37,358 nt of DNA from Mycobacteriales bacterium. Lineage in GTDB: Bacteria > Actinomycetota > Actinomycetes > Mycobacteriales > SCTD01. The DNA lies in NCBI GenBank assembly GCA_040902655.1, contig JBBDWV010000045.1, positions 1 through 37,358 of the forward strand, read 5' to 3'. Every line of letters starts with the position of its first letter. The first letter of the stretch is position 1. Positions 10,305 through 24,353 of this stretch are shown one piece after another. A model generated the notes under the pieces. The model searched no databases, had not been told where the DNA came from, and saw only the letters and a program-made list of their open reading frames with translations. The translations under genes and the position numbers were made by a program.

Positions 10305-11330
10305 GTGCACGTCGAGACTTGGGTCTGGTTCGCCACCATCGGCGCGCTGGTGGGCCTGCTCCTGATCGACCTGGCGATCGCCGCCCGCAAGGGGCCGCAC
10401 GTCGTCAGCATCCGCGAGGCCACCCGATGGGTGGCCTTCTACGTCAGCCTCGCCGTGCTGTTCGGCATCGGGCTCGGGCTGGTCTCGGGGCAGCAGTACG
10501 GCGCCGAGTTCTTCGCCGGCTACCTGACCGAGTACTCCCTGTCGGTCGACAACCTGTTCGTCTTCGTGATCATCATGTCCAGCTTCGCCGTTCCGGCGGT
10601 GCACCAGCACAAGGTGCTGCTCTTCGGCATCGTGCTCGCGCTGGTGCTGCGCGGCATCTTCATCGCGATCGGTGCGGCGGCCATCGAGCGCTTCGTCGCC
10701 ACCTTCTTCGTCTTCGGCGCGTTCCTCATCTTCACAGCTATCAAGCTGGCCCGTAGCGGCGGCGAGGAGGAGCACGGGGAGACCAACGGTTTCGTGCGGC
10801 TGATGGAGCGCGTCCTGCCGACCACGAAGGAGTACGACGGCGCCAACGTGGTCACCCGCGTGGACGGGAAGCGGGTCGTGACGCCGATGCTGCTGGTGAT
10901 GATCGCGATCGGGTCGACCGACATCCTGTTCGCGCTCGACAGCATCCCTGCGATCTTCGGTCTCACGCAGGAGGCGTACATCGTCTTCACCGCGAACGCG
11001 TTCGCGTTGATGGGTCTGCGCCAGCTCTACTTCCTGCTCGACGGCCTGCTGGACCGGCTGGTCTACCTGTCGAAGGGCCTGTCCGTCATTCTCGGCTTCA
11101 TCGGCGTCAAGCTGATTCTGCACGCCGCCCATGAGTACTCCTGGGGCAAGGACTGGGCGCCCGACATCGGCACCTTCACCTCGCTCGGGGTCATCGTGTC
11201 CGTCCTCGCGGTCACCGTCGTCGCGTCGCTGCTGAAGACCAGGAACGACTCCACGGCCGCCAGGAGGCTGCTGCCGGCCGAGGGCGAGGCACGCGAGCAC
11301 ATCCCGGCCGATGCCGCCCAGCGCGAGTAG
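10305..11330 (+). CDS. TerC family membrane protein, probable Mn2+ exporter
   Basis: A 341-residue integral membrane protein of the TerC/Alx family, whose characterised members export manganese. About eight or nine hydrophobic segments are visible. The two family signatures with metal-binding acids are EYSLSVDNLFVFVIIMSSF (D82 region) and GSTDILFALDSIPAIFGLT. A cytoplasmic loop carries the motif THR-like VVTRVDGKRVVTPM before the second signature. The charged C-terminal tail ends around residue 341. GTG 10305 is set by GGAGG at 10296-10300, which sits in the riboswitch hairpin. The manganese riboswitch strongly supports the Mn2+ role over the older tellurite-resistance label. It is monocistronic; the next gene-like sequence is degenerate. 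Confidence 0.93.
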   Translation: MHVETWVWFATIGALVGLLLIDLAIAARKGPHVVSIREATRWVAFYVSLAVLFGIGLGLVSGQQYGAEFFAGYLTEYSLSVDNLFVFVIIMSSFAVPAVHQHKVLLFGIVLALVLRGIFIAIGAAAIERFVATFFVFGAFLIFTAIKLARSGGEEEHGETNGFVRLMERVLPTTKEYDGANVVTRVDGKRVVTPMLLVMIAIGSTDILFALDSIPAIFGLTQEAYIVFTANAFALMGLRQLYFLLDGLLDRLVYLSKGLSVILGFIGVKLILHAAHEYSWGKDWAPDIGTFTSLGVIVSVLAVTVVASLLKTRNDSTAARRLLPAEGEAREHIPADAAQRE

Positions 11331-11496: not shown

Positions 11497-11526
11497 GACC
11501 CCAGGCTCCATTTGTGACGCGCTAGC

Positions 11527-11587
11527 TACCAGCCGCGGGCGCGCCACTCCGGCAGCGAGGGGCGCTCGGCGCCGAGCGTGGTGTCCT
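11527..11587. repeat. Stranded copy of the MBL-gene 3' end, att-like direct repeat A
   Basis: This 61-base stretch matches 14055-14115 at 56 positions: the first 29 bases are identical, then 5 of 7 differ, then 25 are identical. Read on the minus strand it encodes the last residues of the MBL hydrolase (TTLGAERPSLPEWRARGW) with a stop codon at the same place. It has no gene body attached: on the other side is a serine-recombinase fragment. This is the usual look of a gene 3' end displaced when an element integrates there. Confidence 0.8.
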
Positions 11588-11871
11588 CGGCAGCTCTCAG
11601 CGGCTCGGTCGTCGTGGCCGAGCGGTACGACAACGACATCAGCGCCGGCAAGGGCGGTCGTCCCCGTCCTGGCTACTGCGCGCTGCTCGATGACGTCCGT
11701 GGGGACCGCGTGGACCGGGTCGTCGTCTTCCACACGTCGAGGCTGTGGCGCAACCGCGAGGAGCGGGCGCAGGCGCAGCTGCTGGTGCACAGCCCGATGA
11801 TCGTCGGCTGTCCCGACCGGAAGCTGGACCGGCAGGCGGCCGACCGCAGCGACCTGCTCGGGGTCGGCTGA
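11578..11871 (+). pseudogene. Truncated serine recombinase fragment
   Basis: The translation VVVAERYDNDISAGKGGRPRPGY, LLDDVRGDRVDRVVVFHTSRLWRN and REERAQAQLLV matches the second half of the resolvase catalytic domain of large serine recombinases (phage and ICE integrases). The first 35 or so residues, which hold the catalytic serine and the Y-x-R start motif, are missing: the sequence upstream is the repeat copy at 11527. After about residue 72 the frame continues with decayed sequence (CPDRKLDRQAADRSDLLGVG) and stops at 11871. The zinc-ribbon, recombinase and coiled-coil domains are all absent. It cannot be an active enzyme. It is a relic marking an earlier mobile element. Confidence 0.75.
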
Positions 11872-11877
11872 GGCGGT

Positions 11878-12045
11878 CTAGTCGTAGTCGCAGTCGCTGT
11901 CCGCGCCCTTGGCGTTCTTGCTGTTGACGTCCTCGCACGTGTCGTTGAGGGCCGGCTTCGCGGCGTGGGCGGTGCCCGGGACCGCGCCCAGGACGAGGAC
12001 GGACGTCAGGGCTGTGAGGACGACGGCAGCGCGGCGACTGCTCAT
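11878..12045 (-). CDS. Small secreted acidic peptide
   Basis: A 55-residue precursor: MSSRRAAVVLTALTSVLVLG is a classical signal peptide with an AHA-type cleavage site (GTAHA), leaving a mature peptide of about 27 residues. The mature part is acidic and Asn/Asp-rich (LNDTCEDVNSKNAKGADSDC, then DYD), with two cysteines that could form one disulfide. The Asp/Asn-rich spacing suggests calcium binding, faintly recalling excalibur-type motifs, but this is conjecture. ATG 12045 has GAGGG 8 bases upstream on the minus strand. GTG 12078 is possible but lies before the signal peptide. It sits inside the putative element and is divergent from the amidase gene across a 246-base gap with no clear promoter. 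Confidence 0.6.
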   Translation of the reverse strand: MSSRRAAVVLTALTSVLVLGAVPGTAHAAKPALNDTCEDVNSKNAKGADSDCDYD

Positions 12046-12291
12046 AGGAGGCACCCTCGGTAGGTCGGAGCCCGCCACTGTGCGCCCGGATCTCTCGTCC
12101 TGTCACGTCTTTCGCGTGAAGGCGCCGTCGGGTTCGGACACCGGGACACTGCGGACACGAAGCGAACGGCGGCAGGGCTGGGGCGCGCCAGCGCCCGATT
12201 GCTCCGTTCGGCCTACCGCACCGGCCGTCCGGCCGTACCGTCGCACCAGCGTCGTGCGGAGCGGCGACCCTTCACACCTCAGGAGCACGTG

Positions 12292-14049
12292 ATGGCCCAC
12301 GGTTCCCTGCGCCGCCTCGGGCTGCGCGGCCTGCTCGTCGCCGGCCTCACCGCGACCACGCTCGCGCTGCCGGCGCACGCCTACCGGGACGTCGAGCGCC
12401 CGGCGACGTTGCGCGCCGCCGCGCCGGTGTCCGAGGCGGCGGTCGTGCCCGGCTTCCCGATCGACTACGTGGGCGTGATCTGGAGCGAAGAGGAGTCGGC
12501 CCATGCCCATGCCCATGCCGAGGGCGCGGACGAGTCCTTCGGCGAGGTCCGCTTCCGGCACGGCAGCACCTGGGGTGACTGGATCCCGCTCCAGCCGGAC
12601 GGCGCCGACGCGCCCGGCCAGTGGACCTCCGGGCTGCTCGGCGGGCGGGACGCCGACGCCTTCCAGGTGCGCGGCCTGCCAGACCACGCCGGCACGCCGC
12701 GCGCGGTCGCCCTCAACACGACGGACGGGCCGCTCGAAGTCGTGCGCCGCGTGGCGGACGGACCCCAGGCCCTGTCCAGCTGCCGCAGCCGTGCGGAGTG
12801 GGGGGCGGACGAGTCGCTCATGACCTGGGCGCCGGACTTCCACCCGGCCCAGGTCATGACGGTGCACCACACGGCGACGAGCAACGGCGACACCGATCCG
12901 GAGGCCACCGTCCGGGCGATCTACGAGTACCACGCTGTCGACAACGGCTGGGGCGACATCGGCTACCACTACCTGGTCGACCAGTACGGCGTCGTCTACG
13001 AGGGCCGGTGGTCCGGCACTGCGTCCGAGACGTGCACGACCGGTGCCGGGGCCGACTTCGCGCACGAGGCCGGCAGCGACCGCATGGCCACCGCCGCGCA
13101 CACCGGCGGCTACAACTCCGGCAACCTCGGCGTCGCGCTGCTCGGCGACTTCACCTACCACCGCAGGAACGCCAACACCCCGACGAGCGCGGCGACGTCC
13201 TCGCTGACCGATGTGCTGGCCGAGCTCTCCCACCGGCACGGCATCGCCGCGGACGGCACGGTCGCGTACGTCAACCCGGTCGACGGAGGTGCGCGGAGCG
13301 TGGACGCCGTGAGCGGTCACCGCGACTGGGCGTCGACGGAGTGCCCGGGGGACAACCTGTACGCGATGCTGCCCGATCTGCGGGCCGAGGTGGTGGCGAA
13401 GGTCGCCGCGATGGAGACGGGTCCGGGCGTGGCCTTCACGGCGCCCGTCGACGGCTCGACCGTGTCGGCGACCGCACCCGTCGAGGTGACCGCGGAGGAC
13501 GGCGCCGTCTCCGTGGAGTTCGGCGTCGACGGCACGCTGGTGCACACCGACACCGACGCCTCCGACGGCTGGGGCTTCGGCCTGGACACCACGGCGTACG
13601 CCGATGGCACGCACCAGCTCTCGGCGGTCGCCACGGACATCGACGGGGGGACGGGCTCGGCTGCCGTCAGCGTCACGGTCGACAACGTGGCCGACCCGGA
13701 GATCACCGTCTCCGTCGTGGACCTGGACGCGCACACGCACACCAGGGGCGCTCGGTGGGACGCCCACGCCGTCGTGCAGGTGGCCGACTCCGCGGGCAAC
13801 GCGCTGCCCGATGCCTGGGTCTCCGGCACGTTCAGCGGTGACGGGATCTCGCCCACCGACGCCAGCTGTCAGATCGACGCGACCCGGTGCGAGCTGCACC
13901 TCGACGGCCTGGACGAGCGCACCGTGACGTCCGTCACCTTCACCGTGACCGGCGTGCAGGACGACGCAGGGGTCTACGACGCGGCGAAGAACACGGATCC
14001 GGAGACGGACAGCAATCCGCGAGGCACGACGATCCTGATCGCGCTCTGA
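12292..14049 (+). CDS. Secreted N-acetylmuramoyl-L-alanine amidase, PGRP type
   Basis: A 585-residue exported peptidoglycan amidase. The signal peptide MAHGSLRRLGLRGLLVAGLT ends near LPAHA. Residues 40-160 form an N-terminal region with HAHAHA, common in actinobacterial PGRP proteins. The amidase_2/PGRP domain (about 163-370) starts CRSRAEWGADES. It shows the zinc ligands H192 (VHHTA), H343 (SGHRD) and C351 (ECPGD), with the 8-residue H-to-C spacing of T7 lysozyme-type enzymes, plus YHYLVDQYGVVYEGR and HTGGYNSGNLGVALLG. An Ig-like domain (VAFTAPVDGSTVSATAPVEV) and a second beta-rich C-terminal domain follow. ATG 12292 has AGGAG at 12281-12285. It probably cleaves the bond between MurNAc and the stem peptide. 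It lies inside the repeat-bounded region. Confidence 0.9.
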   Translation: MAHGSLRRLGLRGLLVAGLTATTLALPAHAYRDVERPATLRAAAPVSEAAVVPGFPIDYVGVIWSEEESAHAHAHAEGADESFGEVRFRHGSTWGDWIPLQPDGADAPGQWTSGLLGGRDADAFQVRGLPDHAGTPRAVALNTTDGPLEVVRRVADGPQALSSCRSRAEWGADESLMTWAPDFHPAQVMTVHHTATSNGDTDPEATVRAIYEYHAVDNGWGDIGYHYLVDQYGVVYEGRWSGTASETCTTGAGADFAHEAGSDRMATAAHTGGYNSGNLGVALLGDFTYHRRNANTPTSAATSSLTDVLAELSHRHGIAADGTVAYVNPVDGGARSVDAVSGHRDWASTECPGDNLYAMLPDLRAEVVAKVAAMETGPGVAFTAPVDGSTVSATAPVEVTAEDGAVSVEFGVDGTLVHTDTDASDGWGFGLDTTAYADGTHQLSAVATDIDGGTGSAAVSVTVDNVADPEITVSVVDLDAHTHTRGARWDAHAVVQVADSAGNALPDAWVSGTFSGDGISPTDASCQIDATRCELHLDGLDERTVTSVTFTVTGVQDDAGVYDAAKNTDPETDSNPRGTTILIAL

Positions 14050-14053
14050 CGGC

Positions 14054-14707
14054 TTACCAGCCGCGGGCGCGCCACTCCGGCAGGCTCGGCCGCTCGGCGC
14101 CGAGCGTGGTGTCCTTGCCGTGCCCCGGGTAGACCCAGGTGTCGTCCGGGAGCGTGGCGAACACCTTGCGCTCCAGGTCGTCCATCAGTCGGGTGAACCG
14201 CGCGGCGTCCTTGTTCGTGTTCCCGGCCCCGCCGGGGAACAGGCTGTCGCCGCTGAACAGGTGCGGCCGCTCTTCCCCGTCGTACAGCAGCGCGAGGCTG
14301 CCGGGCGTGTGGCCCTCGAGGTGGATGACGGTCAGGCTGGCGTCCCCGACGTTGATCGTGTCCCCGTCGTCGACCAGCCGATCGGCCGGCACCGGCAGGT
14401 CGGCCGCATCGCCGGCGTGGACCAGCACCGGCGCACCGCTGGCCTGCTTGACGTCGGCCAGCGCCTGGACGTGGTCCCAGTGGCCGTGCGTCTCGACGAT
14501 GCCGACCAGCCGGCCGTCGCCGACGAGCGAGAGCAGTTGTGGCGCGTCCCCGGCCGCGTCGATGAGCACCGTGTCGCCGGTCGCCCTGCAGCGCAGCAGG
14601 TAGCAGTTGTTCTCGAACGGCGGCGTGGCCACCTTCGTGATCTGCAGGCCGCCCGCGGTCCGCACGTCGACCGGACCGCCGACCGTCACGTCTCCGGTGT
14701 AGGGCAT
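14054..14707 (-). CDS. MBL-fold metallo-hydrolase, glyoxalase II-like
   Basis: A 217-residue metallo-beta-lactamase-fold hydrolase. The metal site is complete: H74-G-H76-W-D78-H79, H133 in EGHTPG, D154 in SGDSL and H196 in PGHG. This is the set of glyoxalase II/hydroxyacylglutathione-hydrolase-like proteins, which in actinobacteria probably act on mycothiol or other thioesters. M. tuberculosis carries a related gene next to uvrA (Rv1637c-uvrA, as I recall), whereas here 6.6 kb of accessory genes separates it from uvrA. ATG 14707 is preceded by GAGGAGAGGA. It begins 16 bases after the GntR stop on the same strand, so it may now be read through from the GntR promoter. Its last 61 bases are duplicated at 11527. 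Confidence 0.92.
   Translation of the reverse strand: MPYTGDVTVGGPVDVRTAGGLQITKVATPPFENNCYLLRCRATGDTVLIDAAGDAPQLLSLVGDGRLVGIVETHGHWDHVQALADVKQASGAPVLVHAGDAADLPVPADRLVDDGDTINVGDASLTVIHLEGHTPGSLALLYDGEERPHLFSGDSLFPGGAGNTNKDAARFTRLMDDLERKVFATLPDDTWVYPGHGKDTTLGAERPSLPEWRARGW
14055..14115. repeat. Intact-gene copy of the att-like direct repeat (copy B)
   Basis: The 3' end of the MBL-hydrolase gene, including its stop codon, and the partner of 11527-11587 in the same orientation. Copies differ only in a 7-base patch after the first 29 bases. The patch changes no more than one or two codons when read as protein, so either copy could complete the gene. Confidence 0.8.
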
Positions 14708-14723
14708 GGAAGTCGTCCTCTCC

Positions 14724-15443
14724 TCAGGGTGTGCCTGGCGAGCCGGGAACAGGCTGCACCAGACTGCCGACCGCCGGCGCGCTGCCGTCGATCATCGAGT
14801 GGCGCAGGGAGGCGCGTGCGGCCCGCACGTGTGACCGCATGACGGACTCGGCCCACTCGCCGTCCTGCACGAGGATGGCCTCGAGCAGCTCATGATGGTG
14901 CCCGACGCTACGCGCGCGCTCGCGATCGGTGTACCGCTGCATGGTGCGTACGACGAGCGGCCGCTGGATGACCGTCCCGAGCAGTTCCATGACCTGCCGG
15001 TTGCCGGCGGCCTGGTGGACGGCGCTGTGGAACTGCAGATTCAACCTGGTCAGTTCGTTGTAGCTCTCGTCGCCGCCGCGGCGCAGCTGTACGTCCATCG
15101 CTCGGCACAGCTCTTGCAGCGCCGGCACGTCGACGCTGTCCGCGGTGAACCGCTCCGCGGCCCGCCGCGCCGCGTAGCCCTCCAGCAGGCTGCGCATGTC
15201 GTATATCTCGTCCAGCTGCTCGGCACTCCACTCGCTCGCGACGGTCGCGCCGCGGTTGGGCAGGATCTCGACCAGTCCCTCGGCCCGGAGGCGCTGCAGG
15301 GCCTCGCGGACCGGTGTGCGACTCACCCCGGTCGAGGCGGCGATCTCCTCTTCACGCAGCCAGCTTCCGGCGGGGTGCCTGCCCTCCAGGATCTGGCGCC
15401 GGACCGCTGCGTAGGCGGCGTCTGCTGCTCTCGCCATCTCCAT
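14724..15443 (-). CDS. GntR family regulator, FCD (FadR) subfamily
   Basis: A 239-residue repressor-type regulator. The winged helix (about 8-75) has the GntR signature LREEEIAASTGVSRTPVREA followed by LQRLRAEGLVEILPNRGATV. The C-terminal all-helical FCD domain (about 85-220) includes MRSLLEGYAARRAAERF, LNLQFHSAVHQAAGNRQVME and the VGHHHELLEAI segment, whose histidines commonly bind a metal and the effector, usually a small carboxylate. It is transcribed away from the VOC-CoA-ligase-lyase operon. Two GTATAC-centred sites lie in the shared 328-base gap, so it most likely represses that operon until the pathway substrate appears. ATG 15443 is chosen; ATG 15437, two codons later, is equally possible. 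Neither has a strong ribosome-binding site. Confidence 0.92.
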   Translation of the reverse strand: MEMARAADAAYAAVRRQILEGRHPAGSWLREEEIAASTGVSRTPVREALQRLRAEGLVEILPNRGATVASEWSAEQLDEIYDMRSLLEGYAARRAAERFTADSVDVPALQELCRAMDVQLRRGGDESYNELTRLNLQFHSAVHQAAGNRQVMELLGTVIQRPLVVRTMQRYTDRERARSVGHHHELLEAILVQDGEWAESVMRSHVRAARASLRHSMIDGSAPAVGSLVQPVPGSPGTP

Positions 15444-15549
15444 GCTCGCAGTTCTCGAAGGCTCCGGCGTGCCGCGGCTGCCAGTGCGGATCGGGTGCCG
15501 GGAGCGTAGAGGACCCGGCGCGCGCTCGGTTTCCCGCGCCTTTCGGCCA

Positions 15550-15567
15550 CCGGCTCGAACGAGCCGG
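15550..15567. promoter_or_regulatory. 18-bp perfect palindrome in the GntR-VOC gap
   Basis: CCGGCTCG and CGAGCCGG form perfect 8-base arms about an AA centre. It sits between the GntR gene and the first GTATAC site. It may be an operator for another regulator. As RNA it would make a short hairpin with a 2-base loop, which is too tight for a normal terminator. Confidence 0.35.
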
Positions 15568-15578
15568 AATCAGGTCAC

Positions 15579-15588
15579 TTGTATACCG
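15579..15588. promoter_or_regulatory. Candidate GntR operator 1
   Basis: TTGTATACCG holds the GTATAC core with a TT left flank and fits the T-N-GT-NN-AC-N-A type pattern of FCD regulators at all but the last position. It is paired with a second site 123 bases downstream in the opposite orientation, and it lies on the GntR-promoter side of the gap. Confidence 0.45.
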
Positions 15589-15655
15589 GCAGCCCGGTAA
15601 AGCCTGGTGACGCGGGCTCTGGCTAACCCTCTCGATTCTCCCTCCCGGCGGGTCC

Positions 15656-15661
15656 TTGACC
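15656..15661 (+). promoter_or_regulatory. Candidate -35 box of the catabolic operon
   Basis: TTGACC is a good -35 hexamer. A -10 box 17-18 bases downstream would fall at 15679-15685, where only weak matches (AAGTGT or AGTGTT) occur. Transcription would then start just upstream of operator 2 at 15701, a sensible place for repression. The rest of the 328-base gap (15444-15771) holds operator 1, the palindrome and no ORF of note. Confidence 0.35.
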
Positions 15662-15700
15662 AGGGTGTGTGACTGTGCAAGTGTTCTACGTCACAGTCGA

Positions 15701-15710
15701 TCGTATACAA
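15701..15710. promoter_or_regulatory. Candidate GntR operator 2
   Basis: TCGTATACAA fits the T-N-GT-NN-AC-N-A pattern fully and shares the TTGTATAC octamer with operator 1 on the opposite strand. It lies downstream of the presumed -10 region of the VOC operon, where a bound repressor would block RNA polymerase. Confidence 0.5.
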
Positions 15711-15771
15711 CCTGCCCTTTGTGCGCGCGATTGCTGGTCCGCCCGCGGGGGCTCGACGGAAGGACACAGAC

Positions 15772-16257
15772 GTGCCGACGTACCAAGGCGTCAACCATCT
15801 CGCGCTGGTGACCAATGACATGGATGCCACGGTCCGGTTCTACCGGGACGTGCTCGGCATGCGCCTCGTCGGCACCACCGGCGATCCGAAGGCCGACTAT
15901 CCCTACCGCCACTACTTCTTCAGCCTGGGTCCTGGCCACGCCATCGCCTTCTTCGAGTGGCCCGAGGTGCAGCTCCCTGTCCGCAAGGACTCCGGCATCC
16001 CGGCCTCCGGGATCCTGTTCGACCACGTGTCGATCAACGTCTCGTCGGAGGGCGATCTCGACGCACTGCAGGCCTCTCTGCGCGCGGGTGGCTACGACGC
16101 CAGCGACCTCGTCGACCACGGGTTCATCCGCTCGCTCTACTGCACCGATCCCAACGGAATCTCGCTGGAGTTCTCGGTCTCTTCACGTGATCTCGACGAG
16201 GACCCGCTCTTCGAGGACGTCGACCCGGTGCCCGCGGTCGCCGCAGTGGCCCGCTGA
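15772..16257 (+). CDS. VOC family protein, glyoxalase/extradiol-dioxygenase-like
   Basis: A 161-residue vicinal-oxygen-chelate protein with two beta-alpha-beta-beta-beta modules in one chain. Likely metal ligands are H9 (GVNHLAL), H85 (FDHVSI) and E133 (LEFS), with E62 (FFEWPE) as a possible fourth. This set occurs in glyoxalase I, methylmalonyl-CoA epimerase and type I extradiol dioxygenases. The sequence cannot decide between them. GTG 15772 is chosen because the sequence before it is not VOC-like and GGAAGG lies 8 bases upstream. It is the first gene of the presumed operon and likely acts on the pathway substrate or an intermediate: epimerisation, isomerisation or ring opening. Confidence 0.85.
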   Translation: MPTYQGVNHLALVTNDMDATVRFYRDVLGMRLVGTTGDPKADYPYRHYFFSLGPGHAIAFFEWPEVQLPVRKDSGIPASGILFDHVSINVSSEGDLDALQASLRAGGYDASDLVDHGFIRSLYCTDPNGISLEFSVSSRDLDEDPLFEDVDPVPAVAAVAR

Positions 16258-16356
16258 TCTCGTTCCGCCCCGCCCCGGCCTCCTCCCGTGCTGCCGGATG
16301 CCTGTCGCGCCCCCTGTCCTGCGGCGCCCGTCCCGAAGATCCCGATAGGAGCGCAC

Positions 16357-17202
16357 ATGACCATCACGCCGCCTGCACCGACACGCATCGACGTCACGAC
16401 GTTCTCCGGCAAGGACCATCTGCTGGGTCTCATCCGCGAGGAGTACTCGCACACCCTCGAGATGGTGACAGGCACGAGCGAGCAGGAGTGGGACCTGCCC
16501 ACCCCCTGTTCGATGTGGCAGGTCCGGGACCTCGTCGGGCACCTGCTCGACGTCTCCTTCTCCTACATCGGCTACTTCAAGCAGGGCGAGCGGGGCTGGC
16601 CCACCCAGGAGCCCAAGGGCATGCGGGCCTACGGCGCGGGGCTGGGCAAGAGCGCGCTGCTCCACCACGACCTGGACAAGTGGGAGGCGCTCAGCCGGCT
16701 CGACGCCTGCAACGAGCTGCTCTTCGGCTATTTCGACAAGCTGACCGAAGACGAGTGGTCCGGTCGCCTGGTGCCGCACGGCTGGGTGGGTCCCGTCCCC
16801 GCCTTCATGATGGCGGCCTTCCAGCTGATGGACTACTCGGTGCACAACTGGGACTTCCGCAAGGCGCTGGGCCGGGAGGCAACGGTGCACGCGGACTCAG
16901 CGAACACTCTGACGCCCTTCATGTTCGGCCTGATGCAACTGTGCTTCGCCCCCGAGGTGGCCGGCGACCTCGACCTGACCGTCTGCATCGAGATCTCGCC
17001 GGCCGAGGGGGACGTCTGGACGGTGCGGATAGCCGACGGTGCACTCACCTACGAGCCGGGCCGTCCGGCGGCTCCTGACGCCACCTTCACCTTCGGCTGC
17101 GCCGAGTTCTGTCTCGACGTCTACCAGCGGATCCAGGGCGGACAGGCCACCGGCAAGGCGGAGAGCATCGAGGCTTTCCGGAAGCTGTTCTTCACCATCT
17201 GA
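16357..17202 (+). CDS. Maleylpyruvate isomerase family, mycothiol-dependent enzyme
   Basis: A 281-residue protein of the MDMPI/DinB-like family with an SCP2-like C-terminal part. The N-terminal four-helix bundle (about 20-175) carries the signature LPTPCSMWQVRDLVGHLL with metal ligand H62, and SVHNWDFRKALGR with H163. The C-terminal 100 residues (VCIEISPAEGDVWTVRIADG and onward) resemble the sterol-carrier-like domain seen in many members. Characterised relatives use mycothiol to isomerise maleylpyruvate in gentisate breakdown. The family is broad, so this substrate should not be assumed. ATG 16357 follows TAGGAG with a good spacer. The 99 bases before it contain nothing recognisable. The next gene begins 27 bases after its stop. 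Confidence 0.82.
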   Translation: MTITPPAPTRIDVTTFSGKDHLLGLIREEYSHTLEMVTGTSEQEWDLPTPCSMWQVRDLVGHLLDVSFSYIGYFKQGERGWPTQEPKGMRAYGAGLGKSALLHHDLDKWEALSRLDACNELLFGYFDKLTEDEWSGRLVPHGWVGPVPAFMMAAFQLMDYSVHNWDFRKALGREATVHADSANTLTPFMFGLMQLCFAPEVAGDLDLTVCIEISPAEGDVWTVRIADGALTYEPGRPAAPDATFTFGCAEFCLDVYQRIQGGQATGKAESIEAFRKLFFTI

Positions 17203-17229
17203 GGCCCGTACGACCCTCGAGGAGTTCCT

Positions 17230-18468
17230 GTGACGATGACGGCTGCAGACGGCGGTCCACTGCCCGAAGCGGCCGGTCCACTGGGCGGTGTGCGGGTCGT
17301 GGAGGTCGGGAGCCTGATCGCCGGCCCGTTCGCCGGCCGGATGCTCGCGGACTTCGGCGCCGAGGTCGTCAAGGTGGAGAATCCGGCGCGACCGGACCCG
17401 CTCCGGCAGTGGGGGGCACCGGACGAGCACGACCGGACCTCCTGGTGGGCGGTGCAGTCACGGAACAAGAGCTGCGTCACGCTGGACCTGGGCAGCCACC
17501 GCGGGCGAGAGCTGTTCCTGGACCTGGTCGGATCCGCGGACGTGCTGCTGGAAAATCTCCGGCCCGGCAGTCTGGAGGACCTCGGACTGGCTCCGGAGGT
17601 TCTGCTCGAGCGCAACCCCCGGCTCGTCCTGGCCCGGGTTTCCGGCTTCGGCCAGACCGGGCCGGACAGCGGGCGGGCCGGCTACGCCTCCGTGGCCGAA
17701 GCGGTCGGGGGGTTGCGGCATCTCAACGGTTTTCCGGACCTGCCGCCACCCCGGACGGGCCTGTCGCTCGGGGACAGCCTGGGGGCGCTGTTCGCCGTGC
17801 AGGGGATTCTCACCGCCCTGTACTGGAGGGACGCCCGCGGGGGATCCGGCCAGGTGGTGGACTGCTCGCTGGTCGAGGCCTGCTTCGCCATGCTGGAGAG
17901 CGTCGTTCCCGAATACGCCGCCACCGGCAACGTGCGGGGACCCTCGGGGACCCGCCTGGACGGCATCGCGCCCTCCAACATCTTCCGGACAGCCGACGGC
18001 ACCTGGATGGTCGTCGCCGCCAATCAGGACACCGTCTTCACGCGGTTGTGCACCGCCATGGGCCGGCCCGAGCTGGTCGAGGACCCCCGCTTCTCGACGC
18101 ACCAGGCCCGCGGCCGGAACCAGGAGGAGATCGAGGATGTGGTCGCTCAGTGGTGCGCGAGCTACGACAGCGGCGAGTTGAGCAAGCTGCTGGACGAGTG
18201 CGGCGTGCCCTGCGGGCCCGTCAACAGCGTGGCGGACATCTTCGCCGACCCGCTCTTCCGCCAGCGGGGGATGCTGTTGTCGGTCCCGGACGACCAGGGC
18301 GGCGAGGTCGTGATGCCGGGCATCGTGCCCAAGCTGACGCGTAGCCCCGGACACGTGAGGTGGGCCGGGCCCTCGGTCCCCGGACGTGACAACGAGGCGG
18401 TGTTCGGCACCCTCCTGGGCCTGGCAGACCATGAGCTGGCGGACCTGGCCCGCGAGGGGGTCATCTGA
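17230..18468 (+). CDS. Class III CoA-transferase, CaiB/BaiF family
   Basis: A 412-residue member of the formyl-CoA-transferase/CaiB-BaiF family, which moves CoA between carboxylic acids through an aspartyl-CoA thioester. The N-terminus GVRVVEVGSLIAGPFAGRML, DFGAEVVKVENP and NKSCVTLDL are family signatures. The catalytic aspartate is D182 in SLGDSLGAL. LLDECGVPCGPVNSVADIFADP and GGEVVMPGIVPKL mark the C-terminal part of the fold. The protein is full length and appears active. It probably loads the pathway acid with CoA from a downstream product. GTG 17230 has GAGGAG at about 17218-17223. Its TGA overlaps the ATG of a 12-codon mini-ORF leading to the next gene. Confidence 0.93.
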   Translation: MTMTAADGGPLPEAAGPLGGVRVVEVGSLIAGPFAGRMLADFGAEVVKVENPARPDPLRQWGAPDEHDRTSWWAVQSRNKSCVTLDLGSHRGRELFLDLVGSADVLLENLRPGSLEDLGLAPEVLLERNPRLVLARVSGFGQTGPDSGRAGYASVAEAVGGLRHLNGFPDLPPPRTGLSLGDSLGALFAVQGILTALYWRDARGGSGQVVDCSLVEACFAMLESVVPEYAATGNVRGPSGTRLDGIAPSNIFRTADGTWMVVAANQDTVFTRLCTAMGRPELVEDPRFSTHQARGRNQEEIEDVVAQWCASYDSGELSKLLDECGVPCGPVNSVADIFADPLFRQRGMLLSVPDDQGGEVVMPGIVPKLTRSPGHVRWAGPSVPGRDNEAVFGTLLGLADHELADLAREGVI

Positions 18469-18506
18469 TGTGCCCGTTGCGCGCTGACACCTTCCCCGCA
18501 TGGTGA
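18468..18506 (+). other. 12-codon mini-ORF coupling the CoA-transferase and SnoaL genes
   Basis: ATG 18468 overlaps the CoA-transferase TGA and has GAGGGGG about 7 bases upstream. The frame (MCPLRADTFPAW) ends in a TGA that overlaps the GTG at 18503, second codon of the SnoaL-like gene. That gene has no ribosome-binding site of its own. A ribosome reading the mini-ORF would stop exactly at the next start. Coupling is inferred. Confidence 0.35.
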
Positions 18507-18943
18507 CCCGCGCGTCGGCCCTGGACACGTTCTCGGTGTGGCACGTCGCCCACGAACAGCGGGACCTGGACGGGCTCCGGGGCGTCCTGGACGACGACGT
18601 CGAGGTGCACTCCCTGTTCCGACCGGCGCCGGTGCGCGGCCGCGACCTCGCCGTGGACCACTTCTCCCACACGATGCGGACCTTCGCCGACCTCGCCATG
18701 CCTGTCGTGGCCGGGCCGGCCGCTGCCGACAGCGGCGTCGTCTTCGCCGAGGTGGAGTTCGCCGGGACGTTCACCGGGATGTTGCAGTGGGCCGGGACGG
18801 CGCACATCGGCCAGGCCCAGGCCTTCCGGGTCGACGGTGCTGTCGTCCTGCACACGGACGGCGGGCGGGTGTGCTCGGTGCGGACGCTGTTCGACCGGGA
18901 CGCCTGGCTGCGCCAGATCGGCGTGCTGCCGGGCTCCGCATGA
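18500..18943 (+). CDS. SnoaL-like / NTF2-like small protein
   Basis: A 147-residue protein with the cone-shaped alpha+beta pattern of the NTF2/SnoaL superfamily. An N-terminal helix ALDTFSVWHVAHEQRDLDGL is followed by LDDDVEVHSLF, the helix VDHFSHTMRTF, and strands VVFAEVEFAGTF, AQAFRVDGAVV and VCSVRTLFDR. Such proteins are often isomerases, dehydratases or binding proteins. No specific catalytic residue can be assigned, although H36 and several buried acids are candidates. ATG 18500 and GTG 18503 are both possible starts. There is no Shine-Dalgarno sequence, but the preceding mini-ORF ends right here. Same strand and tight spacing place it in the catabolic operon. Confidence 0.75.
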   Translation: MVTRASALDTFSVWHVAHEQRDLDGLRGVLDDDVEVHSLFRPAPVRGRDLAVDHFSHTMRTFADLAMPVVAGPAAADSGVVFAEVEFAGTFTGMLQWAGTAHIGQAQAFRVDGAVVLHTDGGRVCSVRTLFDRDAWLRQIGVLPGSA

Positions 18944-19010
18944 CGCCCCGTGGACCGGGCCCGTCCGGCTCCGGCAGACCGTGCACGCGTCCTCGACCAG
19001 GAAGGCCACC

Positions 19011-20525
19011 ATGGCAGGCGACCTGCTGACGATTCCCGAATTCCTCGAGCAGGGAGCGAACCGCTGGCCCGACGCGCCGTGGTGGCTGGCCGGCGAGCCG
19101 GTCCCGGTCAGCCGGGCAGCGGCGTATGAGTCGGCGCGTCGGGTGGCCGGCGGGCTGCGGGCCCTCGGCGTCGAACCCGGAGACCGCGTCGTGGTCGTGC
19201 TCCCGAACGGCCTGGACTTCGTGCGGGCCTGGTTCGGGACGGTGCTGGCCGGCGGCGTGGTGATCGGTGTGAACCCTGCGGCGGCCGCCGCCGAACTCGC
19301 TGCCGTCGTGGCGAAGGCGGCGGCATCCGTGGTCGTCGCGGACGAGCAGCGTCCGCTGCCGGCCGGCGTCCGGACCGTCGAGGTGGGCGATCTGGACGCG
19401 GCCTCCCCGTTGGCCCCCGTCACCACGTCCCCTGAACAACCGGCATCCTGCATCCAGAGCAGCGGCAGCACCGGGGAGCCGAAGTTCGTCGTCGAGACCC
19501 ATGCCATGTACACGGCGGCGGCCGAGGGGTTCCCGTTCTGGCTGGGGCTGACGGAGGACGACGTGCTGCTCACGACGCTTCCGCTCTCGCACCTGAACGC
19601 GCAGGCGTACTCGACCCTGGGCTCCTACGGCGCCGGTGCGCGGCTCGCCCTGCTGCCGCGCTTCTCGGCAAGCAGCTTCTGGGACCAGGTCCGCCGGTAC
19701 GGCGCGACCCAGTTCAACGCGATCGGGGCCATGGTGGAGATCCTCATGGCGCAGCCGCCTTCGCCGGCGGAGCGGGACCACAGCATGCGGCTGTGCTACT
19801 CCGCGCCGGCCCCGACGGAGCAGCGCCACCGGGAGATCGAGGAGCGGCTCGGTCTCCGCCTCGTCATCGGCTACGCGCTGTCCGAGACGCCGTACGGCCT
19901 CATCTCGCCCGTGGACCGGCCTGCCGTGTACGGCTCGATGGGCCGCCCGCGACAGCATCCGCGGCTCGGTGAGGTCAATCACGCGCGGGTGGTGGATGGG
20001 GTGGGTCGGGACGTCGCCCCTGGGGTCGTGGGGGAGCTCCTGCTGCAGAACCCGTTCACGACACCGGGGTATCTCGACCAGCCCGAGGCCAGCGCACAGA
20101 TCATGCGCGACGGCTGGCTGCGCACCGGTGACCTGGCATCCTGCGACGCCAACGGGGACTACTACTTCGCCGGACGTCTGAAGGAGACGATCCGGCGCCG
20201 TGGGGAGAACCTGTCGCCGGCCGAGGTCGAGAACGTCATCGAGGCGCACCCCGCGGTCACCTCGAGCGCCGTGATCGGGGTGCCGTCGCCGTTGACCGAG
20301 GAGGACATCAAGGCCTTCGTCATGCTGCGGCCGGGCGCCTCCCTGTCCCCCGACGAGCTGGTGAACTGGTGGTCCGACCGCCTGCCGCCCTACAAGCGGC
20401 CGCGGTACCTCGAGTTCGTCGACGGCTGGCCACTGACCGAGACGCAGAAGATCGCCAAGACCAGGCTCCCGCGGGAGCGGACCGCGGCCGAGGCCGACCT
20501 CCAGAAGGGCCCGATCCATGCCTGA
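19011..20525 (+). CDS. Acyl-CoA ligase, AMP-forming
   Basis: A 504-residue ANL-superfamily ligase that activates a carboxylate to its CoA thioester through an acyl-adenylate. The phosphate-binding loop is SSGSTGEPK (150-158). ALSETPYGL is the A5 motif, RTGDLASCDANGDYYFAGRL the A7-A8 hinge region, and GENLSPAEVENVIEAHPAV follows. The C-terminal catalytic lysine is K480 in TQKIAK. It resembles the crotonobetaine/carnitine-CoA and short-to-medium acyl-CoA ligases; the true substrate is unknown. ATG 19011 follows AGGAAGG and matches the normal ANL N-terminus (LTIPEFLEQGANRWPDAPWW). The frame runs open to 18837 but the extra part is not ligase-like. It overlaps the lyase-like gene by 8 bases, so the two are coupled. 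Confidence 0.92.
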   Translation: MAGDLLTIPEFLEQGANRWPDAPWWLAGEPVPVSRAAAYESARRVAGGLRALGVEPGDRVVVVLPNGLDFVRAWFGTVLAGGVVIGVNPAAAAAELAAVVAKAAASVVVADEQRPLPAGVRTVEVGDLDAASPLAPVTTSPEQPASCIQSSGSTGEPKFVVETHAMYTAAAEGFPFWLGLTEDDVLLTTLPLSHLNAQAYSTLGSYGAGARLALLPRFSASSFWDQVRRYGATQFNAIGAMVEILMAQPPSPAERDHSMRLCYSAPAPTEQRHREIEERLGLRLVIGYALSETPYGLISPVDRPAVYGSMGRPRQHPRLGEVNHARVVDGVGRDVAPGVVGELLLQNPFTTPGYLDQPEASAQIMRDGWLRTGDLASCDANGDYYFAGRLKETIRRRGENLSPAEVENVIEAHPAVTSSAVIGVPSPLTEEDIKAFVMLRPGASLSPDELVNWWSDRLPPYKRPRYLEFVDGWPLTETQKIAKTRLPRERTAAEADLQKGPIHA

Positions 20526-21318
20526 GCAGCCGCCGTTCCGCAGCGACATCGCCAGCTCCACCGCTGACACGATCACGGTTCGGGGCTTCGACCTCACCGA
20601 GGAACTGATGGGACACCTCGACTTCGGGTCGATGTGCTTCCTGCTGCTGTCCGGGCGGCAACCCAGTGACGCCGAAGGCCGGCTGTTCAACGCGGTCCTC
20701 GTGGGCCTCGCCGAGCACGGGCTGACGCCCAGCGCGATCGCCACCCGGCTCACCTTCACCGGTGCACCCGAGGCCGTGCAGGGGGCCGTCGCTGCCGGCA
20801 TCCTCGGGGCCGGCTCGGTCTTCCTCGGCGTCGTGGACGACGCGGCGCGGATGCTGCAGTCCGCCGGGCCGGACCCGGCGGCGGACAGCACTTCGCTGCG
20901 CGCCCTGGCGGAGGAGATCGTCGACCGCTTCCTGGCCAGTGGGGCCGAGCGGCTACCCGGGGTGGGTCACCCGATCCACCGCAACGGCGACCCGCGCACG
21001 GTCCGCCTGTTCGGGCTGGCCGACGAACTCGGCGTGGCCGGTCCCCACATCCGCCTGATGGAGGCCGTGGGGCAGGCCATGACCGACCGCAGGGGCGGCT
21101 ATCTGCCGGTGAACGGCGCCGGCGCCTCGGCCGCTGCCCTGTCCGATCTGGGCCTGCACTGGCGGGTGCTGCGCGGTGTCGCCGTCATCGCCCGGACCGG
21201 TGGCCTGGTCGGTCACCTCGAGGAGGAGCGGGTCCGGCCGATCGGGGCGGGTCTGTGGCGGTGGCTGGACGACGTGGCGGTCGCCAACAGCGCTGCTGCC
21301 CACGTGGGGGAGCGTTAG
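20518..21318 (+). CDS. Citryl-CoA lyase-like protein, citrate synthase superfamily
   Basis: A 266-residue short member of the citrate-synthase fold, the size of proteins annotated as citryl-CoA lyase. Two of the three catalytic positions are recognisable: H67 in AEHGLTPSAIATRL (as in citrate synthase D-H-x-x-N) and H151 in GVGHPIHRNGDPRT. The third, the aspartate normally found in a P-N-V-D-type segment, aligns by eye with LPVNGAGA (197-203), where A201 replaces it. The N-terminal domain is also shortened. It may cleave or form a C-C bond on a CoA ester by an altered mechanism, or be a non-catalytic partner. ATG 20518 overlaps the ligase stop by 8 bases. It is the last gene of the island. Confidence 0.82.
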   Translation: MPEQPPFRSDIASSTADTITVRGFDLTEELMGHLDFGSMCFLLLSGRQPSDAEGRLFNAVLVGLAEHGLTPSAIATRLTFTGAPEAVQGAVAAGILGAGSVFLGVVDDAARMLQSAGPDPAADSTSLRALAEEIVDRFLASGAERLPGVGHPIHRNGDPRTVRLFGLADELGVAGPHIRLMEAVGQAMTDRRGGYLPVNGAGASAAALSDLGLHWRVLRGVAVIARTGGLVGHLEEERVRPIGAGLWRWLDDVAVANSAAAHVGER

Positions 21319-21365
21319 CCTTGGAGGAGCCGGGCCCCTCCGGCACTGCCTCCTGATGGGACCCG

Positions 21366-24353
<2,988 letters not shown>

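Follow-up and report, generated by a model that had tools for sequence, protein, structure and literature searches.

Why does this actinobacterial genome carry the 3' end of an MBL-fold hydrolase gene twice, once at the gene itself and once with no gene attached? The window, that is the whole stretch of 37,358 nucleotides that was analysed, comes from a 3.56-Mb draft genome in 62 contigs, the nearest named relatives of which are Frankiales/Frankineae MAGs. The first-pass annotation had described a direct repeat here and read it as an attL/attR pair left by integration into the end of the gene. The repeat was borne out by re-alignment: positions 11527-11587 and 14055-14115, read on the same strand, agree at 56 of 61 bases, both consist of the last codons and the stop of the hydrolase gene, and the copy at 11527 was confirmed to have no gene attached to it. 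Both copies (the orphan tail and the attached tail) translate to DTTLGAERPSLPEWRARGW*; the differing codons, CGC CCC TCG versus CGG CCG AGC, give Arg-Pro-Ser either way, and the stops are TAG and TAA. Because these three codon differences are synonymous and the stops differ, the copies diverged while still encoding a working hydrolase end. The best minus-strand match of the MBL tail in the window was 34, and among about 86 related loci the best match of any gene tail, orphan copies aside, was 39/61. Comparison with congeners as a means of telling which of the window's two tails is native was dropped, 61 bp being too little signal. The identities of terC, the MBL gene, the signal-peptide amidase and the Resolvase-domain piece were confirmed by a domain search of the window (Table 1).

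Table 1. Features of the repeat-bounded interval and its flanks, in window coordinates
Feature	Position	Strand	Remarks
terC (left flank)	10305..11330	+	195 bp from its stop to the orphan tail
Orphan MBL 3' end, last 19 codons and stop TAG, gene-less	11526..11587	-	56/61 to 14055-14115
Serine integrase shard from within the catalytic domain, roughly residues 41-96 of the full-length enzyme	11588..11757	+	PF00239
Secreted protein X, last ~30 codons, in-frame fusion to the integrase shard	11758..11871	+	
Small secreted peptide, 66 aa, possible cargo	11878..12078	-	open frame, signal-like N terminus
Secreted Amidase_2 + Big_7 protein, possible cargo	12292..14049	+	stop 4 bp from the MBL stop
Attached repeat copy, the 3' end of the intact MBL gene, stop TAA	14054..14115	-	
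Intact MBL-fold hydrolase gene, proposed target	14054..14707	-	Lactamase_B, E 7e-20
Phe-Pro-Gly-Gly codons (TTCCCCGGCGGG), the attB-core position in intact examples	14228..14239	-	host-type FPGGAGNT

Relatives carry one MBL copy beside uvrA and terC, and the gene end is single-copy in six congeners (G005, G003, G004, G008, G002 and G007). The congeners are ~80% identical to this strain. The terC and MBL stops of G005 are about 30 bp apart, and in the other congeners the gap is small or filled with unrelated genes; the 195 bp between terC and the orphan tail in the window resemble the terC-MBL gaps at such unoccupied sites. The single-copy empty sites that had been expected in related genomes were thus found, and none of the insert-free relatives examined carries two copies. 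No orthologue of the amidase was found at the terC-MBL interval among the congeners examined, and the window's own family yielded no intact element. The inserts of 7-8 kb beside the MBL gene in G004 and G008 contain no second tail and no integrase among their open frames; they were rejected as instances of the same element, their gene content being unrelated. MBL and uvrA are adjacent in most congeners, unlike in the window, where about 6.6 kb of other genes (14708-21366; a GntR-type regulator, a VOC-like protein and a CoA-transferase-like protein) separates them.

The items reported earlier between the copies, namely a recombinase fragment, a secreted peptide and a secreted amidase, were all recovered, as a PF00239 match, a signal-like N terminus and an Amidase_2 domain, respectively. 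The PF00239 (Resolvase) match (E 6e-6) covers the internal part of the domain only: the first ~40 residues of the recombinase are absent, and so is everything beyond about residue 96. The open frame at 11578-11868 is a fusion in which the recombinase residues are followed by the C terminus of an unrelated secreted protein, X, the remnant of which is 69-88% identical to proteins of three other genomes (G009, G010 and G023). Either X is cargo or its presence reflects a more complex course of events. No phage structural or lysis gene was found in the 2.5-kb insert, the only genes of which are the small peptide and the signal-peptide amidase; nor was a tyrosine integrase found there, the recombinase domain being of the Resolvase type. 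A secreted protein designated 'HEERE' (a putative beta-helix by sequence) adjoins terC in several genomes (L098 5011-7430, L100 1528-3956 and L036 2284-5424) and is followed by X in two genomes; the window keeps only the end of X. A second serine-recombinase-like frame, of 350 aa, is present elsewhere in the window's genome (L102 4703-5755, on G000:C61), with no MBL tail adjoining.

Beyond the window's family, at least 16 other actinobacterial genomes also have orphan copies of the MBL gene end. Tail searches spanned the order and the class, selected genomes were followed up, and the counts are those among the matches listed, with no frequency claimed. Besides the window, 17 genomes were counted: 13 with pairs from the tail searches (G344, G261, G372, G348, G186, G138, G173, G454, G660, G628, G667, G713 and G685), Geodermatophilus telluris (L161 = G324), two Modestobacter genomes and Kutzneria; the number is given as at least 16 because the pairs of G348 and G667 are split over contigs. 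The genomes given by handle belong to families f8, f16, f32, f33 and f41, beyond the window's f1, and scars of MBL-site elements are present in at least six actinobacterial families. The orphan tails of G344, G138, G628 and G667 are 180 bp long, G. telluris has an orphan copy of the last ~140 bp at 1.8 kb from its intact MBL gene, and the MBL tails of the two Modestobacter genomes are decayed. In G. telluris and G348, the orphan tail is present, the attached tail is host-type, and the two tails are nearly identical. In G344:C1, G348 and G667, one portion of the attached tail was observed to match the orphan tail exactly and the remainder to diverge from it, a pattern suggestive of gene conversion between direct repeats; the state of G. 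telluris and G348 plausibly arose in the same way. Annotated MBL-fold hydrolase genes with the same C terminus were also observed on plasmids of Rhodococcus, Tsukamurella and Gordonia (hits H15-H25).

What kind of element leaves such a tail? In five genomes (G344, G138, G628, G667 and Kutzneria), a large serine integrase gene adjoins the orphan tail and reads inward. The MBL gene and the orphan tail are 64 kb apart in G344, where a 503-aa serine integrase starts 53 bp from the tail, and 10.9 kb apart in G138, where the integrase lies at 19 bp; the interval is 30.7 kb in G628, again with the integrase near the orphan tail, and in G667 the integrase is 33 bp from the tail and the element is split over two contigs. 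Full-size elements bounded by the same gene end, which the first-pass annotation had proposed to look for, thus occur in other families, with a serine integrase beside the orphan copy. No MBL tail was found near about 29 other integrase loci from the family of G344, and a search for the G344 integrase in viral contigs gave no result.

Alignment of attached and orphan tails showed TTCCCSGGNGG to be common to both; it corresponds to Phe-Pro-Gly-Gly (FPGG) codons about 180 bp before the stop. Upstream of this core, the orphan side is element DNA. Downstream, the attached side has a foreign pattern, FPGGPGRTT, that is common across genera and families, and the orphan side is host-like. Crossover at TTCCCSGGNGG, with foreign attached tails and host-type orphan tails, was observed in at least 10 pairs. 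Across 2.5 Mb of fetched loci, the nucleotide signature TTCCCSGGNGGTCCTGG was found only at MBL genes. At the protein level, FPGGPGRT by itself does not suffice for diagnosis, since two other genomes encode it with different codons. Judged from these junctions, the intact elements join a replacement end of ~60 codons to the host gene, displacing the host end and keeping the gene whole. The attL/attR reading is thus supported overall, with the correction that the 61 bp are not the attachment core, the crossover lying ~180 bp before the stop. A tyrosine-type attL/attR pair with the 61 bp as its core was rejected, the intact cases having an upstream core and a serine recombinase.

The corresponding attP arrangement is found in free phages. 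In the mycobacteriophages Larva, Kratio, Collard and others, the integrase start is followed by 18 bases, the core and a replacement MBL tail, an arrangement that matches attP as reconstructed from the intact elements. The tail is annotated as a 'hydrolase' gene in Larva and Collard, and the announcement of K5 phages notes only that a 43-residue protein is related to the C termini of hydrolases (PMC5679794). The placement of integrase, attP core and replacement tail side by side explains this gene fragment; Larva gp38 (L322 4052-4183), annotated 'hydrolase', is predicted to be a replacement host MBL 3' end and not a separate enzyme. In Kutzneria, the signature TTCCCSGGNGGTCCTGG was seen, yet no orphan tail lay within the first 10 kb. 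The prediction of distant orphan tails and an integrase was tested and held: an integrase and a partial orphan tail were found at ~19.6 kb, and three more tails at ~31, 34 and 35 kb.

Does the window hold a relic of such an element? Its orphan tail and shard adjoin and are divergent, which is the topology of the intact elements, with a shard of only ~55 residues. The shard is 46-56% identical to the MBL-site integrases (SRLWRNREERAQ versus SRLWRNRSERAE in the G667 integrase), and the motif RNRxERA is present in the shard, in five of six MBL-site integrases and in none of 31 others, a non-random sample of 28 relatives of the G344 integrase and 3 integrases from the window's family. A rank test on similarity scores gave p 0.0015. 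The nearest tree neighbours are the G667 and G628 integrases, with support that is not strong, and some integrases that are not from an MBL site are about as similar to the shard as those from MBL sites (L289: 63% over 51 residues). A search of the shard against the phage collection gave no result. The core-proximal ~120 bp of the window's orphan tail are missing, so that only the last 61 bp are left and the FPGG core is not reached, and the attached tail reads FPGGAGNT, which is host-type, with neither the attP-arm signature TTCCCSGGNGGTCCTGG nor FPGGPGRTT. The suggestion that the element brought a replacement end and displaced the old one thus holds for other genomes, and the window's host-type attached tail departs from it.

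Taken together, we estimate a probability of about 70% that positions 11526-14054 are what is left, after decay, of a serine-integrase element, either a prophage or a satellite, integrated in the 3' part of the MBL hydrolase gene. Since the attached tail lacks the attP-arm signature, the window is filed as a probable relic of an MBL-site element and not as a proven member. With an orphan tail shortened to 61 bp, an integrase of which ~55 residues are left and an attached end of host type, integration in the window is inferred, whereas the repeat, the shard and its place, the empty sites of relatives and the anatomy of the mechanism in other genomes and in free phages are shown. In the proposed course of events, the integrase would recombine attP with the Phe-Pro-Gly-Gly codons ~180 bp before the MBL stop; the host gene would be joined to an element-borne end of ~60 codons, and the old end would be moved to the far side, beside the integrase gene. 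A later deletion would have brought the final 61 bp of the orphan end up against an internal part of the integrase gene; one such event, removing ~0.3 kb with the core-side half of the tail and ~40 codons from the integrase start, would account for the junction seen in the window. Most of the element would then have been lost, and the attached end may have become or stayed host-like, perhaps via gene conversion between the copies. One point against integration is that the X remnant sits inside the insert and not outside it; in another genus, X is found between terC and MBL.

An unlikely alternative is illegitimate capture: non-homologous or homology-facilitated recombination would have placed between terC and MBL a fragment of an element, or of another strain's locus, that comprised an MBL tail and an integrase start, in a lineage whose MBL gene was never entered by an element. 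A captured attP piece would look no different, the tail and the integrase being neighbours in free phages as well; the host-type attached tail and the X remnant within the insert also fit such a capture, as do the unrelated genes of congeners at the same place, which indicate that the terC-MBL interval is often rearranged. However, capture needs a coincidence, the piece landing exactly beside its own target gene in an integration-like orientation, and the resulting spacing between terC and the tail must also resemble that of an empty site. It is improbable that the MBL end was partially duplicated in tandem, or that a second MBL gene left a relic, with the recombinase piece present by coincidence: the synonymous-only differences do indicate that the copy descends from a working gene end, but a second MBL gene at the locus, which the first-pass annotation had named as a competing origin, was found in no relative, and orphan tails elsewhere begin at one fixed site and adjoin integrases. 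Chance resemblance, which had been doubted from the start, or an assembly artefact, for which the draft state of the genome could speak, can practically be set aside, given 56/61 against a maximum of 43/61 for the best plus-strand match elsewhere of 300 random 61-mers of the window, and given copies that differ by synonymous changes and sit inside an 89.9-kb contig.

Beyond the reading of the window as a decayed integrated element, it is highly probable that a widespread class of serine-integrase elements, isolated temperate phages included, uses the FPGG codons of the MBL hydrolase gene as attB across Actinomycetes, with a portable end of ~60 codons that keeps the gene whole, tandem stacking, gene-tail scars and possibly the build-up of defence islands (Wadjet and AbiEii in Kutzneria). 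The subcluster K5 mycobacteriophages (genus Kratiovirus: Larva, Kratio, Collard, AlleyCat and Edugator) share the integrase, the attP core and the adjoining MBL tail, and their integrase reads away from the tail. They are full phages of another host family, whereas the window contains no phage structural gene, its integrase piece is only ~51% identical to theirs over 57 residues, and the phage-type signature is absent from its attached gene end.

Islands at tRNA genes likewise carry the 3' end of the target, displace the old end and leave a direct repeat, and e14 at icd is an element that restores the 3' end of its target gene. The best-known restorers of 3' ends use a tyrosine integrase and a long common core, whereas the MBL site has a serine integrase and a short core, located, unlike in the best-known gene-end islands, at the upstream edge of the repeated tail. 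Gene restoration by islands has been described in general (PMC12884075). Serine integrases in protein genes are also known, as for Bxb1 in groEL1, Bxz2 in a DNA glycosylase gene, and the MabI and MabJ prophages (PMC9262239, PMC8092301). These share a large serine recombinase, a very short common core and an attB inside coding sequence, but are described as gene-disrupting, whereas the intact MBL-site elements bring their own gene end; the cited cases disrupt the gene or come without reported restoration (PMC8092301, PMC9262239, PMC10654092). Some actinomycete integrative and conjugative elements with serine integrases enter protein-coding genes, among which no MBL target was seen (PMC3218068). 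In the open-licence literature, the search turned up no report of the MBL gene as a target of serine integrases.

The tiny common core makes it difficult to predict where serine integrases attach. At the MBL site, the displaced and the replacement tails and the short signature of the attP arm serve as a sequence handle for a site that phages and islands use in several actinobacterial families. The MBL-site elements also offer actinobacterial genetics candidate integrases that would preserve the gene they enter, and they show that past integration can be read from the orphan gene tails left as scars. In Kutzneria sp. CA-103260 (L332/L333, G792:C1:11519000-11557500), several orphan tails are stacked in tandem behind one MBL gene. 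The MBL-site interval of Kutzneria is a defence island, in which a Wadjet type III set (JetA-D), an AbiEii-like protein, a kinase-like protein and a PDC-S01 hit were observed.
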